Positions 2,197 to 44,879 of a DNA stretch of 64,000 bases are shown here, one piece after another. Under the pieces are notes generated by a model. That model was given only the letters and a program-made list of their open reading frames with translations. It did not search any database and was not told the DNA's origin. Location: the NCBI GenBank assembly GCA_945868845.1, contig CAMBMS010000006.1, positions 1 through 64,000 on the forward strand, given 5' to 3'. Source of the stretch: Asaia bogorensis (GTDB lineage: Bacteria > Pseudomonadota > Alphaproteobacteria > Acetobacterales > Acetobacteraceae). A program made the translations under genes and the position numbers. Each line of letters starts with the position of its first letter. Position 1 is the first letter of the stretch.

Positions 2197-2882
2197 TCAG
2201 ACGATTTTCATCCGCACCGTGCCAATGCCGGCGACGATGCCTTCCAGAAGATCGCCACACTGCAAGGCGGCGACGTTTCCCGGCGTGCCGGTGTAGATCC
2301 GGTCGCAGGGGGCCAAAGTAAAAAAAATGGGAGAGGCAGGAGGTCGTCTCCGACACGTTCCAGATCATTCTTGAGAGATCGGACGTCTGGTGCACTTTGC
2401 CGTTAACTTTCAGTTTGATCAAGCCGGTAGCAGAATAGCCGATCTGGACTGTGGGGACGAGAGTGCCGATCGGCGCGGAGTGATCGGATCTCTTGCCCAT
2501 GTCCCAGGGTTTGGCCTCTTTTTTTCGTGGCAGTCGGCCCGTCACGCCGGGGCATATCGAGGCCGGCGGGGTAGTCCCAGACATGGGAGAGCGCGGCTGG
2601 TTCGGAAATATCGGTGGCCGCCTTTACCGAGGGCGACCACCAGCCCCATTTCGTGATGCAGGTCTTTGGAAGCCTGCGAATAGGGCATGTCGGCATCGTT
2701 CAGCAGCGGTACATCGGCCGGTTTCATGAAGAAGGGCGGCTCACAGTTGGGGTCAGAATTCATTTCGCGTGCGTACACGGCAGAGTTCCGGCTGACGCAA
2801 AAAACCGGCCCACCGGGAAAATGCCGCCGCCCGCGACGGCAATGGATATGAGGGCGGGCGGGGCGATCACGTAATCGACCAT
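2197..2882 (-). pseudogene. FAH-family hydrolase, multiply frameshifted
   Basis: Joining pieces from three minus-strand frames gives a recognisable fumarylacetoacetate/fumarylpyruvate hydrolase-like protein. It starts MVDYVIAPPALISIAVAGGG (ATG at 2880-2882), continues with FCVSRNSAVYAREMNSDPN, FFMKPADVPLLND, DLHHEMGLVVALGKGG and TGLIKLKVNGKVHQTSDLSR, and ends IVAGIGTVRMKIV with TGA at 2197-2199. I count at least four frameshifts. Three lie at or beside runs of one base (T6 near 2797, T7 near 2519, A8 near 2320). No single open frame spans the gene, so it is non-functional as read. Active relatives hydrolyse acylpyruvates with a divalent metal. Confidence 0.85.
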
Positions 2883-2952
2883 GCAACGAAATCCTATCGG
2901 TACGGGGAAGCGCGGCGGACCTTAGCGTTGCGTGGTACGAACGCAAAGATGT

Positions 2953-3774
2953 TCAGTCAGCGGCGGCCATGTGCGAGGTGTAAGCGGCCACGGCATCGCG
3001 GAACTCAGTAAAAATACGGCGCGAGACGGCATCGGTTTCGAAATCATATTCCGGATGCCATTGTATGCCGATGGCGAAGCCGCGGATCGAGCCGGTGGCG
3101 ATGGAAACCACGCGCACCGCCTCAATCGTGCCGTCCGGAGCGATGCCTTCGGCGTGCAGGCCGGGGGCGAGGCCGTCGATACCCTGGTTGTGCAGGGAAT
3201 TGACCGCGATTTCGGTCGCGCCGGCAATGCGGTGCAGCCAGCTACCCGGGGTGATGCGCAGGCCATGCGCCTTGCCCTGGCGGATGCGCGCGCAGGGTTG
3301 GGAGGGGGTGGAATGGTCGATCCGGTCCGGTAAATCCTGTAGGCGCTGATGCAAAGTGCCGCCGAGGGCGACGTTCAGTTCCTGAAAGCCGCGACAGATC
3401 GCCAACAGCGGCACCCCCTGGTCCAACGCGGCGCGGATGAGAGGGAGCGTATAGGCGTCGCGCTTCGGGTCTTCCCAGGTGCCTTCGGCGTGCGGCGGGC
3501 CGCCATAGAGGCTGGGATGCACGTTCGAGCGGCTGCCGGTGAGGATGATACCGTCCAGGCGGTCAAGCAGCGAATGGACGTCCGCCTTTTCGCCATTGGC
3601 GGGGAGCAGAATGGGGATGCCGCGCACCACATCATCGACCGCGCGGACATAGGTATCGGACGCGCCGTGGTTCGGCATGCCGAACGTGCCGTATTGGCGG
3701 GTGCAGCAGCTGATGCCGATCAGAGGCTTTCGACGTGGGGCGGTTTGCATGGCGGGTTCAAAGTTTGCCATCAT
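2953..3774 (-). CDS. class I glutamine amidotransferase-like (PuuD/peptidase C26 family)
   Basis: This 273-residue protein matches the gamma-glutamyl-GABA hydrolase family (peptidase C26). The nucleophile is Cys127 in LLAICRGFQELN, and the partners His240 and Glu242 are in GIQWHPEYD. The family hydrolyses gamma-glutamyl amides, for example gamma-glutamyl-GABA in putrescine breakdown. No puu genes are adjacent, so the substrate is open. The N-terminus MMANFEPAMQTAPRRKPLIG offers several ATGs; the true start may be a few residues in. It is separated from recR by about 50 bases and is probably its own unit. Confidence 0.85.
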   Translation of the reverse strand: MMANFEPAMQTAPRRKPLIGISCCTRQYGTFGMPNHGASDTYVRAVDDVVRGIPILLPANGEKADVHSLLDRLDGIILTGSRSNVHPSLYGGPPHAEGTWEDPKRDAYTLPLIRAALDQGVPLLAICRGFQELNVALGGTLHQRLQDLPDRIDHSTPSQPCARIRQGKAHGLRITPGSWLHRIAGATEIAVNSLHNQGIDGLAPGLHAEGIAPDGTIEAVRVVSIATGSIRGFAIGIQWHPEYDFETDAVSRRIFTEFRDAVAAYTSHMAAAD

Positions 3775-41012: not shown

Positions 41013-41598
41013 TCAACCCCACCATTTCCGCCATCCGGGGGCCGGCAGATCGCAGGCCGGGCAGTCATCGCTGCAATGGCCCCATTCGTGCAGATGGGTG
41101 CGATCACCGAGATAACAGGAACGTGATTCGGTACGGATCAGTTCGACCAGCGCATCGCCACCCAGATAGTGTGCCAGCGCCCAAGTGGCCGGCCTATCGT
41201 ACCTCATCAACTGGGTTTCCAGCACGAAGCAACGGGCCATGCCGGTAGACGAGGGCGTCGGCGCAGGTGAGAAACAACAAATTGCGGCCTGAGGCGAAGA
41301 TATTTGGCAGGCCAGCCCGCTCGCATGGTGATCTCGGCTTGCGAGGTGGCGTCGAACTGCCCAGTTGGGCGATGGTAGCTGTCAGATCAACCATGTGGTC
41401 GGCGCCGAGTTTTTCGCTCCAGCTGTTCAGCCGCGCGACGTCCTGGCGCAGCGGTTCGTGGCAACCAAGTTCCACCGCATGGCGCTGGCCATAGGCAAAC
41501 CCGATCGTCTTCACCCGAGCAAAGCAGACCAGCGCCCAGGCGAGGCACGTCCCGGCATCCTGGCTGCCGGAGAACAGCACCAAGGCGGTTTGATCCAT
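41013..41598 (-). pseudogene. queC: 7-cyano-7-deazaguanine synthase, internal deletion
   Basis: The N-terminal part reads MDQTALVLFSGSQDAGTCLA and TIGFAYGQRHAVELGCHEPL, then PNIFASGRNLLFLTCADALV. A second frame gives PATWALAHYLGGDALVELIR, SCYLGDRTHLHEWGH and DDCPACDLPAPGWRKWWG. The middle segment of QueC is missing, the two parts are out of frame, and the P-loop normally SGGxDS reads SGSQDAG. QueC makes preQ0 for queuosine; this copy cannot work. The zinc cysteines near the C-terminus are also depleted. Confidence 0.85.
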
Positions 41599-41647
41599 TA
41601 TCTTGCACCCTCTTCGCTTTGGTGCGGTGAGTGCCTATTCTCTTCTC

Positions 41648-42472
41648 ATGGATCTCGATTTTTCCGAAGACGAAATTCGCCGCTATTCCCGCCATATCCT
41701 GTTGCAGGATGTCGGCGGCATTGGCCAAGCGAAGCTGAAAGCTGCGAAGGTGCTGCTGGTGGGGGCGGGCGGGCTTGGGTCGCCGCTGGTGCTCTATCTG
41801 GCCGCCGCCGGGATAGGTCGGATCGGGATCGTCGATCACGACACCCTGGAACTGTCCAATTTGCAGCGCCAGATCGCGCATACCACGGCGCGGATCGGGC
41901 AATCGAAAGCTATTTCGGCGGCGGAAACCGCGCTGGCGATCAATCCAGAAATACGGATTGATGCCCATGTCACGCGGCTCAGCGCGGAAAACGTGGCGGC
42001 GCTGATCTCCGAGTACGATCTGGTGTGCGACGGGACGGATAATTTTGCCACCCGCTTCCTGATCGCCGATGCCTGCGTCCTGGGGCGCAAAACACTTGTC
42101 TCCGCCGCTGTGCTCCGATTCGAGGGCCAGCTATCGGTGTTCAAGCCGCATGCGCATGCGGGAGGGCCATGTTACCGCTGTCTTTATCCGGCACCACCGC
42201 CGCCAGGTCTGATACCGTCCTGTTCGGAGGCCGGCGTGCTGGGCGCCGTGACCGGGGTGATGGGCACCTTACAGGCGACCGAGGTGCTGAAGGAAATTCT
42301 CAGCGCCGGCGATTCCCTGTCGGGCCGGTTGCTGGTCTGGGATGCGCTGGCCAGCCGGTTTCGTACCATCCGACTGCGCAAGGATCCGCAATGCGCCCTG
42401 TGTGGAACGGCGCCGACGATTCGCGACCTTTCAGCGCATGGGGATGTTCCGGATCCGGTCTGTGCGGTCTGA
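41648..42472 (+). CDS. moeB: MoeB/ThiF-family sulfur-carrier adenylyltransferase
   Basis: This 274-residue protein shows YSRHILLQDVGGIGQAKLKA, the ATP loop VLLVGAGGLGSPLVLYLAAA, IVDHDTLELSNLQRQIAHT, zinc cysteines in PCYRCLYP and CALCG, and the active Cys region IPSCSEAGVLGAVTG. It adenylates the C-terminus of MoaD or ThiS-type carriers for molybdopterin, thiamine or related sulfur transfer. ATG 41648 (MDLDFSEDE) is the natural start. It overlaps the next gene, so it belongs to a small sulfur-related unit. Confidence 0.88.
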   Translation: MDLDFSEDEIRRYSRHILLQDVGGIGQAKLKAAKVLLVGAGGLGSPLVLYLAAAGIGRIGIVDHDTLELSNLQRQIAHTTARIGQSKAISAAETALAINPEIRIDAHVTRLSAENVAALISEYDLVCDGTDNFATRFLIADACVLGRKTLVSAAVLRFEGQLSVFKPHAHAGGPCYRCLYPAPPPPGLIPSCSEAGVLGAVTGVMGTLQATEVLKEILSAGDSLSGRLLVWDALASRFRTIRLRKDPQCALCGTAPTIRDLSAHGDVPDPVCAV

Positions 42473-42848
42473 GGCGCTTCATCTGGGTATTCTGCTGATC
42501 TCCGGCAATCATGCCCGGGCGCATTATGCCTTTGTCCTCGCCACCGGGGCGGCGGCGCTAGGGCGGAGGGTAACTTTGTTCGCCACCAATGACGGCTGCC
42601 ATGCGCTGCTGGCGGATTGGTCGGGGCTGGCGGATTCGGGGCGCGACGCGGTGCTGGTGGGGCGCGGCGTGGCGGGATTGGCGACGTTGCGCGACGCGGC
42701 GCGGGAGCTGGATTTACGTATGATCGCCTGCGAAGCTGGCCTGCGCGGCGAGGGACTGGAACATGCGGCGCTGTTCCCCGGCGTCGAAATCGCCGGTGTG
42801 GCGACATTTCTAGCGGCCGTCGGGGGCGGGCAATTTCTTTCGCTGTAA
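42438..42848 (+). CDS. DsrE-family sulfur-relay-like protein
   Basis: This protein of up to 136 residues has the DsrE/DsrF-like fold pattern: HLGILLISGNHARAHYAFVL, ALGRRVTLFATNDGCHALLA, RMIACEAGLRGEGLEHAALF and a final VEIAGVATFLAAVGGGQFLS. A cysteine at CEAG could be the sulfur site. The start is uncertain: ATG 42438, ATG 42444 or GTG 42462; all overlap moeB. The overlap suggests that it works with the MoeB-like enzyme in sulfur transfer. Confidence 0.75.
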   Translation: MGMFRIRSVRSEALHLGILLISGNHARAHYAFVLATGAAALGRRVTLFATNDGCHALLADWSGLADSGRDAVLVGRGVAGLATLRDAARELDLRMIACEAGLRGEGLEHAALFPGVEIAGVATFLAAVGGGQFLSL

Positions 42849-42850
42849 GC

Positions 42851-43642
42851 ATGTTCTGGACCCGATTCGCCTGTGATTGGCACAAGAGCAGGATGTTCGG
42901 GTCGCTGGTGCGCGTGGTAATGATGGGGGTGATGCTGGCCAGCGAGCCGGTAGGTGCGCAAACAGGCGCATTGCCCATTCCGCCACCCGCGCCGCCGCGG
43001 CGGCCCGATACGGTTCAGGCGGCCCCGACGCGCCCGGCATCGCCACCGCGCACCCCCCCCGCGCACGTCGGTTCCAACCGGCCGGCCTCCCCCGTGGTGA
43101 CGGCCCCGCCGCGCGACAATGCACAACGGCCTGCCCAGACGGCGCGCCCCGCCGTCCCCGTCCCGCCGCCGGAGGTACCCGCCCCGGTGGAGCCGGTGCT
43201 CGAACCCGGCAAGGGCAGCGTGACCAATCTGCCGATCCCGCGCTTTGCCGCATTGAAGACCGACGAGGTCAATCTGCGTACCGGGCCAGGCCAGCGCTAT
43301 CCTGTGGACTGGGTCTACAAGCGGCGCGATCTGCCAGTGCAGATCGAGCGGGAATTCGATGTCTGGCGGCTGGTGCGCGATCCTGAGGGCGTGAAGGGTT
43401 GGGTGCATCAAGCCACGTTGACGGGACGGCGGACCTTCTTCGTCCTGGGGGAGGAACGCGCGATGCGTCGGCAGGCCTCCGACGACGCGGGGGTGGTGGC
43501 GCGGCTAAGGCCCGGGGTGGTAGGTTTGCTGAAGCGATGCGAGGTGGACGCGGCGTGGTGCCAAGTGCAGGTAGGAGAACATAAAGGCTGGATGAAACGC
43601 TCTGAGCTTTGGGGCGTCCTGGGTCGTGAAGCCGTGAACTGA
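42851..43642 (+). CDS. secreted SH3-domain protein with proline-rich linker
   Basis: This 263-residue protein has an N-terminal signal peptide (FGSLVRVVMMGVMLASEPVG then AQ), a 90-residue Pro/Ala-rich linker, and two bacterial SH3-type modules: KTDEVNLRTGPGQRYPVDWV to GWVHQATLTG, and ERAMRRQASDDAGVVARLRP to GWMKRSELWGV. Such proteins sit in the periplasm and may bind peptidoglycan. The start could be ATG 42893 instead, which lies right at the signal peptide. It begins two bases after the DsrE-like gene. Confidence 0.8.
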   Translation: MFWTRFACDWHKSRMFGSLVRVVMMGVMLASEPVGAQTGALPIPPPAPPRRPDTVQAAPTRPASPPRTPPAHVGSNRPASPVVTAPPRDNAQRPAQTARPAVPVPPPEVPAPVEPVLEPGKGSVTNLPIPRFAALKTDEVNLRTGPGQRYPVDWVYKRRDLPVQIEREFDVWRLVRDPEGVKGWVHQATLTGRRTFFVLGEERAMRRQASDDAGVVARLRPGVVGLLKRCEVDAAWCQVQVGEHKGWMKRSELWGVLGREAVN

Positions 43643-43681: not shown

Positions 43682-44005
43682 ATGGAAAAGTCAGCGAACA
43701 AAGACGTTCTCCGTGCCTCCCATGACCTGGGCGGCGTGTCGAAATTCATGTGCGAGCCCGTGGACATCGAACCGCATGCCTTCACCGATTTCGACCGAGA
43801 GGTGGATGCGATCCGCCAGATCCTCGACATGAAGAAGGTGATGAGCGTGGACGAGCTGCGCCGCGGGATCGAGGCGATTCCGGAAGCTGAATATCATCAG
43901 CTATCCTATTACCAGCGCTGGATCCGTTCTATTACTGATAACCTCCTGACGCGGGGCGTGATTACCGAAGCCGAATTGCGCGTGGCCTTGGAGGCGGGGC
44001 GGTGA
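43682..44005 (+). CDS. nitrile hydratase beta N-terminal half / thiocyanate hydrolase beta-like subunit
   Basis: This 107-residue protein aligns by eye with the N-terminal half of nitrile hydratase beta: ASHDLGGVSKFM, FTDFDREVDAIRQILDMKK, IEAIPEAEYHQLSYYQRWIR and NLLTRGVITEAEL. In thiocyanate hydrolase and toyocamycin nitrile hydratase this half is a separate subunit. It overlaps the next gene by four bases, and the three genes form one coupled unit in the same order as scnB-scnA-scnC. Confidence 0.85.
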   Translation: MEKSANKDVLRASHDLGGVSKFMCEPVDIEPHAFTDFDREVDAIRQILDMKKVMSVDELRRGIEAIPEAEYHQLSYYQRWIRSITDNLLTRGVITEAELRVALEAGR

Positions 44006-44283
44006 CTTTCTCGTCGGGCCAGAAAGTGCGGGTAAGACTGGATTGGCCTGAGACGCGCGGGCCGTGCCATATCCGTACACCGCATTATCTGCGCGGGGAA
44101 CCGGGCGTGGTGGTGCGCCATCTTGGCGATTACCCGAATCCCGAGGATCTCGCCTTCGCGCGCCCAGCGGAGATGCGCCCGCTCTATCACGTCGCGTTCG
44201 ATCAGACCGCTGTCTGGCGCAGCGGGCGCGCGGGTGACGAACTGCTGGTGGAAATCTACGAACATTGGCTGGAACCGTTATGA
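44002..44283 (+). CDS. nitrile hydratase beta C-terminal half / thiocyanate hydrolase alpha-like subunit
   Basis: This 93-residue protein matches the C-terminal SH3-like half of nitrile hydratase beta: FSSGQKVRVRLDWPETRGPC, IRTPHYLRGEPGVVVRHLG and LYHVAFDQTAVW, ending LLVEIYEHWLEPL. In ordinary nitrile hydratases this is fused to the preceding domain. Its start overlaps the upstream stop and its stop overlaps the alpha-type gene (ATGA at both joints), so equal expression is likely. Confidence 0.86.
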   Translation: MTFSSGQKVRVRLDWPETRGPCHIRTPHYLRGEPGVVVRHLGDYPNPEDLAFARPAEMRPLYHVAFDQTAVWRSGRAGDELLVEIYEHWLEPL

Positions 44284-44879
44284 GCATCCTAGACACCGCC
44301 CTGCTGGAGACCGACACCGATCGCCTGCTGGCGGCCGTCCGCGTCCTGCTGACCAGCAAGGGGATTCTTTCGCCCGAGGAAATCGCCGAACGGATTGCCG
44401 TAACCGATAAAGGCTCGCCTGCGCAGGGGGCACGCATGGTAGCCTTAGCCTGGACCGATCCGGCCTATCGCGCGCGCCTGCTGGCGGATGGGACGGCGGC
44501 GGCAGAGGAAATAGGCATCATGATGCGCGGCATGCCGCCTCTGGGCGTGCTGCAGAATACCGCGTCCGTGCACAACCTCGTCGTTTGCACGCTTTGTTCC
44601 TGCTATCCGCGCGCGGTCCTGGGCTATCCGCCCTTCTGGTTCAAATCCGCAGCCTATCGCGCCCGCGCGGTGCGCGATCCACGCGGGCTTATTGGTGAAT
44701 GGGGCACACAGCTGGCGGACGGTGTCAAAGTGCGGGTGGTGGATTCGACCGCCGATTACCGCTGGATGGTGTTGCCTATGCGTCCCGCCGGAACGGAGGG
44801 CTGGAGCGCCAGGCAACTGGCCGCGATCGTGCGCGAGGGCGATATGATCGGGGTAACAATACCCGCCGTGCCGGGCTGA
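44280..44879 (+). CDS. nitrile hydratase alpha / thiocyanate hydrolase gamma-like catalytic subunit
   Basis: This 199-residue protein carries the metal-binding claw HNLVVCTLCSCYPRAVLGYP, with Cys103, Cys106 and Cys108. The Thr between the first two is the pattern of cobalt-type enzymes. It also has the conserved YPPFWFKSAAYRARAVRDPR block. It binds Co(III), with two cysteines normally oxidised to sulfinic/sulfenic acids, and hydrates a nitrile or thiocyanate. No activator/chaperone gene follows; the next 800 bases are decayed. Substrate unknown. Confidence 0.88.
   Translation: MSILDTALLETDTDRLLAAVRVLLTSKGILSPEEIAERIAVTDKGSPAQGARMVALAWTDPAYRARLLADGTAAAEEIGIMMRGMPPLGVLQNTASVHNLVVCTLCSCYPRAVLGYPPFWFKSAAYRARAVRDPRGLIGEWGTQLADGVKVRVVDSTADYRWMVLPMRPAGTEGWSARQLAAIVREGDMIGVTIPAVPG

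Follow-up and report, generated by a model that had tools for sequence, protein, structure and literature searches.

A predicted three-subunit, activator-free nitrile hydratase of an Acetobacteraceae branch in Asaia bogorensis

Gene organization and active-site residues

Three overlapping genes encoding the parts of a nitrile hydratase (NHase) lie on the forward strand of the Asaia bogorensis contig stretch of 64,000 nucleotides analyzed here (the window). The first (43682..44005, 107 aa, ATG start) encodes the N-half of the beta chain (beta-N, scnB/anhD-like; PF21006 NHase_beta_N, E 7e-16). The second (44002..44283, 93 aa, GTG start) encodes its C-half (beta-C, scnA/anhE-like; PF02211 NHase_beta_C, E 2e-16), and the third (44280..44879, 199 aa, ATG start) the alpha chain (scnC/anhA-like; PF02979 NHase_alpha, E 3e-73). 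The split three-gene NHase proposed in the original prediction was thus recovered at its positions and with its sizes, and the order of the Pfam domains matches the scnB-scnA-scnC order named there. Both overlaps are four bases long. The ATGA overlap expected at both junctions is present between beta-C and alpha, but the one between beta-N and beta-C reads GTGA since the second gene starts with GTG.

Among the NCBIfam models, beta-N matches the N part of TIGR03888 (nitrile_beta) and not the activator family TIGR03889. The beta-C protein aligns with the C-halves of beta chains and with ScnA of thiocyanate hydrolase (SCNase; 2dd4_A). The PDB chains closest to the window alpha are alpha chains of Co-type NHases, with the SCNase gamma chain ranking lower, and its score of 228.7 bits against TIGR01323, the NHase alpha equivalog, is under the cut-off of 249.85. 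The fold of the proteins is already established by homology. The nearest relative of the trio is found in a sister genome (L033), where the alpha chain is 88% identical. The dN/dS values against this relative are 0.10 for beta-N, 0.14 for beta-C and 0.11 for alpha, near that of the housekeeping neighbour MoeB (0.075), which argues that all three genes are functional.

The motif VCTLCSC, on which the claim of a cobalt-type enzyme was based, occupies residues 102-108 of alpha. A C-x-L-C-S-C claw with T at x is characteristic of the cobalt-type NHase superfamily. The cobalt-binding claw CTLCSC (Cys103-Cys108, 44586..44603) is invariant in 80/80 related loci, and an alignment of the metal-site cysteines, whose failure was named earlier as counter-evidence, finds Cys103, Cys106 and Cys108 all in place. 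The two beta arginines for the oxidised cysteines, Arg52 and Arg157, are represented by Arg60 of beta-N, assigned by alignment, and by Arg25 of beta-C (44074..44076) in HIRTPHYLRG, assigned by motif. Arg60 is followed by Arg61 (the pair at 43859..43864), an extra arginine typical of the arginine-type clade described below. Of the 96 split enzymes counted, 94 have Arg or Lys at this place beside Arg52, whereas none of 36 one-piece beta chains has Arg there. Arg61 was considered as an SCNase marker and rejected, as SCNases carry Lys or Ile there in an ungapped alignment.

A further arginine, Arg111 of alpha (44610..44612), directly follows CTLCSCYP and is equivalent to gammaArg136 of SCNase; most classical NHases have Trp here. 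All 80 related loci have Arg at this site, and so do SCNase and, without exception, the activator-free split enzymes sampled. Every activator-type NHase sampled, Fe-type included, has Trp, His, Phe or Asn. As judged from these sequences, the arginine goes with the activator-free half of the enzymes plus SCNase. A broader rule, by which it would accompany any split beta chain, does not hold: split enzymes of Gloeocapsopsis (L186) and Aminobacter MSH1 (L187), which are alpha-first and have an activator, keep the Trp. Arg-Trp mutants of SCNase and NHase were reportedly made by Yamanaka et al. 2013 to probe substrate selectivity. The PDB entries hold both directions of the exchange, with Trp replacing Arg136 in an SCNase (3vyg_C) and Arg replacing Trp in the P. 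thermophila NHase (3vyh_A).

Conservation of the split and phylogeny of the alpha chain

A total of 80 related loci were collected from public genomes, mostly Acetobacteraceae/Rhodospirillales MAGs. The beta chain is kept as two genes in all 77 of them with readable complete trios, the window counted, and the overlaps are usually a four-base NTGA. The split is therefore ancestral within the Acetobacteraceae-type group. This rules out that an ordinary beta gene was recently broken by a frameshift, which the original prediction had named as counter-evidence. Matches to the alpha chain were found in 223 of the 397 family genomes sampled, where the lower-scoring ones include classical NHases. Three-subunit activator-free NHases hence appear to be no rarities; they make up a widespread branch that is common in the Acetobacteraceae and passed on vertically there. 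In the plasmid relatives examined, RefSeq mostly labels the beta pieces just 'SH3-like domain-containing protein'.

Maximum-likelihood trees of the alpha chain were constructed with classical NHases, Fe-type enzymes, PDB chains, the SCNase of T. thioparus and further split enzymes. All activator-type NHases are separated from the remaining enzymes by a branch supported at 100/99. The window alpha falls outside the ordinary two-subunit NHases at this branch, so that the second kind of counter-evidence, a placement inside them, was not found either. It belongs to a distinct Acetobacteraceae clade with a long stem (100/100, or 100/99 once a plasmid member from Agrobacterium rubi is added) in the half of the tree that we call arginine-type, which also holds SCNase. 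The SCNases themselves, from T. thioparus (2dd4) and two plasmids, form their own 100/100 clade, and the window alpha lies outside it. By the AU test, neither joining the Acetobacteraceae group with SCNase (p 0.36) nor joining it with the classical side (p 0.36) is rejected. From its sequence, the window trio is assigned to a branch of the known three-subunit NHase type that is uncharacterised and widely conserved in the Acetobacteraceae. To our knowledge, no member of this clade has been assayed, analyzed for its metal or had its structure solved.

Genomic neighbourhood, maturation and possible substrates

The trio is preceded on the same strand by genes for an SH3-domain protein (42617..43642, PF06347, start codon uncertain), which ends 39 bases upstream, a DsrE-like protein (42342..42848, PF13686, start uncertain) and a MoeB/ThiF adenylyltransferase (41636..42472, PF00899 and NCBIfam moeB models). 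The latter two belong to a syntenic block. Further upstream, a queC pseudogene lies on the reverse strand (41013-41598); its frame is broken in two, an internal stretch is missing, and the PP-loop motif SGGQDS is changed to SGSQDA. The usual arrangement across the related loci is QueC on the reverse strand, MoeB, DsrE, SH3 and the trio. In 30 of 65 loci, the SH3 gene is the immediate upstream neighbour of the trio. The QueC-MoeB-DsrE-SH3 block is found alone in one trio-less genome (G043, locus L135), which indicates that this part is backbone.

Downstream, a gamma-glutamyltranspeptidase (GGT) gene directly follows the trio in 26 of 73 loci, sometimes overlapping it (examples are L034-L047, L052, L063, L077, L080, L091, L101 and L112). 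The pair also occurs without the QueC-MoeB-DsrE-SH3 block (e.g. L042, L046, L101), and the link between trio and GGT may therefore be functional. The GGT of L052 has an N-terminus that looks signal-peptide-like by eye. Downstream of the window trio, GGT is absent with no remnant visible, and other GGTs are encoded elsewhere in the genome. Beside the trio in the window, neither an amidase nor a Co transporter was recognised. A trio on an Agrobacterium rubi plasmid (L188/L203), arginine-type as well, belongs to the clade of the window trio and is accompanied by two amidase-type genes together with an ABC transporter and a GntR regulator. Clustering of an ABC transporter, an amidase and an NHase is the usual arrangement for converting a nitrile to the amide and then to the acid. 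The plasmid neighbourhood thus favours degradation of organic nitriles.

No activator gene was found near the window trio, as the original prediction had claimed, or at any of the 80 related loci. The window genome does encode one activator (C15:26567-26785), located beside a second, classical NHase on the same contig (about 25.2-26.9 kb) with alpha, a one-piece beta and the P14K-type activator. Maturation of the window trio in trans by this protein is very improbable: the gene is available in this genome, but the activator family TIGR03889 has no match in 20 of the 22 trio genomes, which shows the trio class to be independent of it. We propose instead that beta-N has a second role as chaperone for metal and subunit swapping, like AnhD of Streptomyces canus, and for this reason no activator gene would be needed. 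By analogy with that enzyme, beta-N is probably such a chaperone.

The trio is likely to be an active cobalt three-subunit NHase of the arginine-type activator-free branch, with beta-N as its chaperone and nitrile hydration as its reaction. In the proposed mechanism, alpha would provide the CTLCSC claw, two cysteines of which would be oxidised once cobalt is inserted. Beta-N and beta-C would each give one of the two arginines binding the oxidised cysteines, and the split beta would in this way reassemble around alpha. The enzyme would then hydrate R-CN to R-CONH2. We infer metal, self-chaperoning and reaction alike. The extra arginines beside the active site point to a substrate that is small and either polar or anionic, and a new substrate, as raised earlier, is possible.

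The resemblance to SCNase, pointed out in the original prediction, stands for the gene order, the split beta and the arginine at the gamma136 position, and fails at the TIGR03887 cut-off and at an adjacent P15K-type activator; the window alpha lies outside the SCNase clade. That the trio converts SCN- to carbonyl sulfide and ammonia is quite unlikely. The shared order scnB-scnA-scnC with its split beta, Arg111 at the gammaArg136 position, the sulfur-handling neighbours MoeB and DsrE, and a joint clade with SCNase that the AU test does not reject all speak for it. Yet the score against TIGR03887 is 175.4 bits with a cut-off of 291.45, the SCNases keep to their 100/100 clade, and two plasmid SCNase loci carry an activator-like ORF downstream whereas the window does not. 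The MoeB-DsrE-SH3 block exists without the trio in L135, and an arginine of the Arg111 type is common to all arginine-type enzymes and hence not specific to SCNase. On the features tested (TIGR03887 cut-off, clade and adjacent activator), which are all read from sequence, the trio is not an SCNase. The active-site arginine that has been engineered as a switch between SCNase and NHase (3vyg, 3vyh) is thus a general marker of the arginine-type branch and not of thiocyanate hydrolysis. The question of the substrate can thereby be put to a direct test, by assay and by exchange of a single residue.

Action of the trio on preQ0 or another 7-deazapurine nitrile, in the manner of ToyJKL and with the substrate made by the neighbouring QueC, is very improbable. 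QueC lies a few kb or less from the trio in about 23 of 80 related loci, but in the window, purifying selection acts on the trio whereas queC is a pseudogene with several breaks. In G043 the block is present and the trio absent, 11 other genomes without a trio have QueC at a different place, and in a further genome (G053) QueC and the trio are 40 kb apart. The preQ0 link through a neighbouring QueC was rejected as backbone synteny. The pseudogene is the sole clear QueC match in the window genome, and queC is intact in the sister genome. On another contig of the window genome (C5, 150-153 kb), a gene for a YhhQ-like transporter clusters with tgt and queF; together with the broken queC, this cluster suggests that queuosine precursors are salvaged.

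The GGT pairing allows a more specific proposal: a family-wide metabolic enzyme whose positively charged pocket takes a specific anionic or zwitterionic nitrile, e.g. beta-cyanoalanine from gamma-glutamyl compounds, working with the GGT found downstream in about one third of the relatives. We consider it unlikely; if true, the reaction would differ from the one known for the family, the hydration of xenobiotic nitriles.

Comparison with known systems

Classical two-subunit Co-type NHases, such as that of P. putida (3qxe) and the second NHase of the window genome itself (L001), share domains, claw and the two beta arginines with the trio. They differ in the one-piece beta, the activator and the Trp, rarely His or Phe, where the window has Arg, and are set apart in the tree at 100/99. 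Two split enzymes, L186 and L187, have the order alpha, beta-N, beta-C, activator and are placed among the classical ones, so the beta chain has been split more than once. At an Agrobacterium vitis F2/5 locus (L191), an unannotated beta gene lies between alpha and activator (2573-3381); its N-half is seemingly intact and ends in a stop, and the next stretch has stops in that frame. A permuted split NHase with the order beta-C, alpha, beta-N occurs at three loci (L117, L118 and L119). Downstream of it lie Co transporters of the HoxN or CbtAB type and, at some of these loci, aquaporin and DUF302; both beta pieces are labeled 'SH3-like domain-containing protein' in RefSeq.

SCNase (ScnBAC, 2dd4) is like the trio in gene order, split beta, Arg after CTLCSCYP and cobalt claw. 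It forms a separate 100/100 clade, and the window trio is below the curated cut-off, has no adjacent activator and lacks the His-rich N-terminus of the SCNase alpha-type chain; no Arg of SCNase aligns with Arg61 of beta-N. In the plasmid SCNases of Roseomonas (L121) and Azospirillum (L193), ScnB and ScnA are fused, and an unannotated activator-like ORF follows scnC.

The toyocamycin NHase ToyJKL of Streptomyces rimosus also has three subunits (cited in PMC7329996), and its likeness to the trio is one of description. The NHase of Streptomyces canus (ScNHase) is a cobalt-type enzyme encoded in the order anhD-anhE-anhA with no activator gene, and subunits of 10.4, 11.4 and 21.3 kDa were reported (PMC7329996). 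It hydrates acetamiprid, thiacloprid and BN, and its beta-N, AnhD, is the metal and swapping chaperone (PMC7329996). Compared by description, it agrees with the window trio in the order beta-N, beta-C, alpha, in the three small subunits, in the missing activator gene and in the cobalt type, but it belongs to another lineage. As actinobacterial sequence proxy, we used the nearest such trio found (L116, Streptomyces NBC_01176), whose alpha is 56% identical to that of the window and falls in a separate arginine-type subclade; its neighbours are aquaporin and a Co transporter, unlike those of the window trio. With ToyJKL and ScNHase taken by description, the closest described precedent of the window trio is the activator-free ScNHase, and neither SCNase nor ToyJKL.
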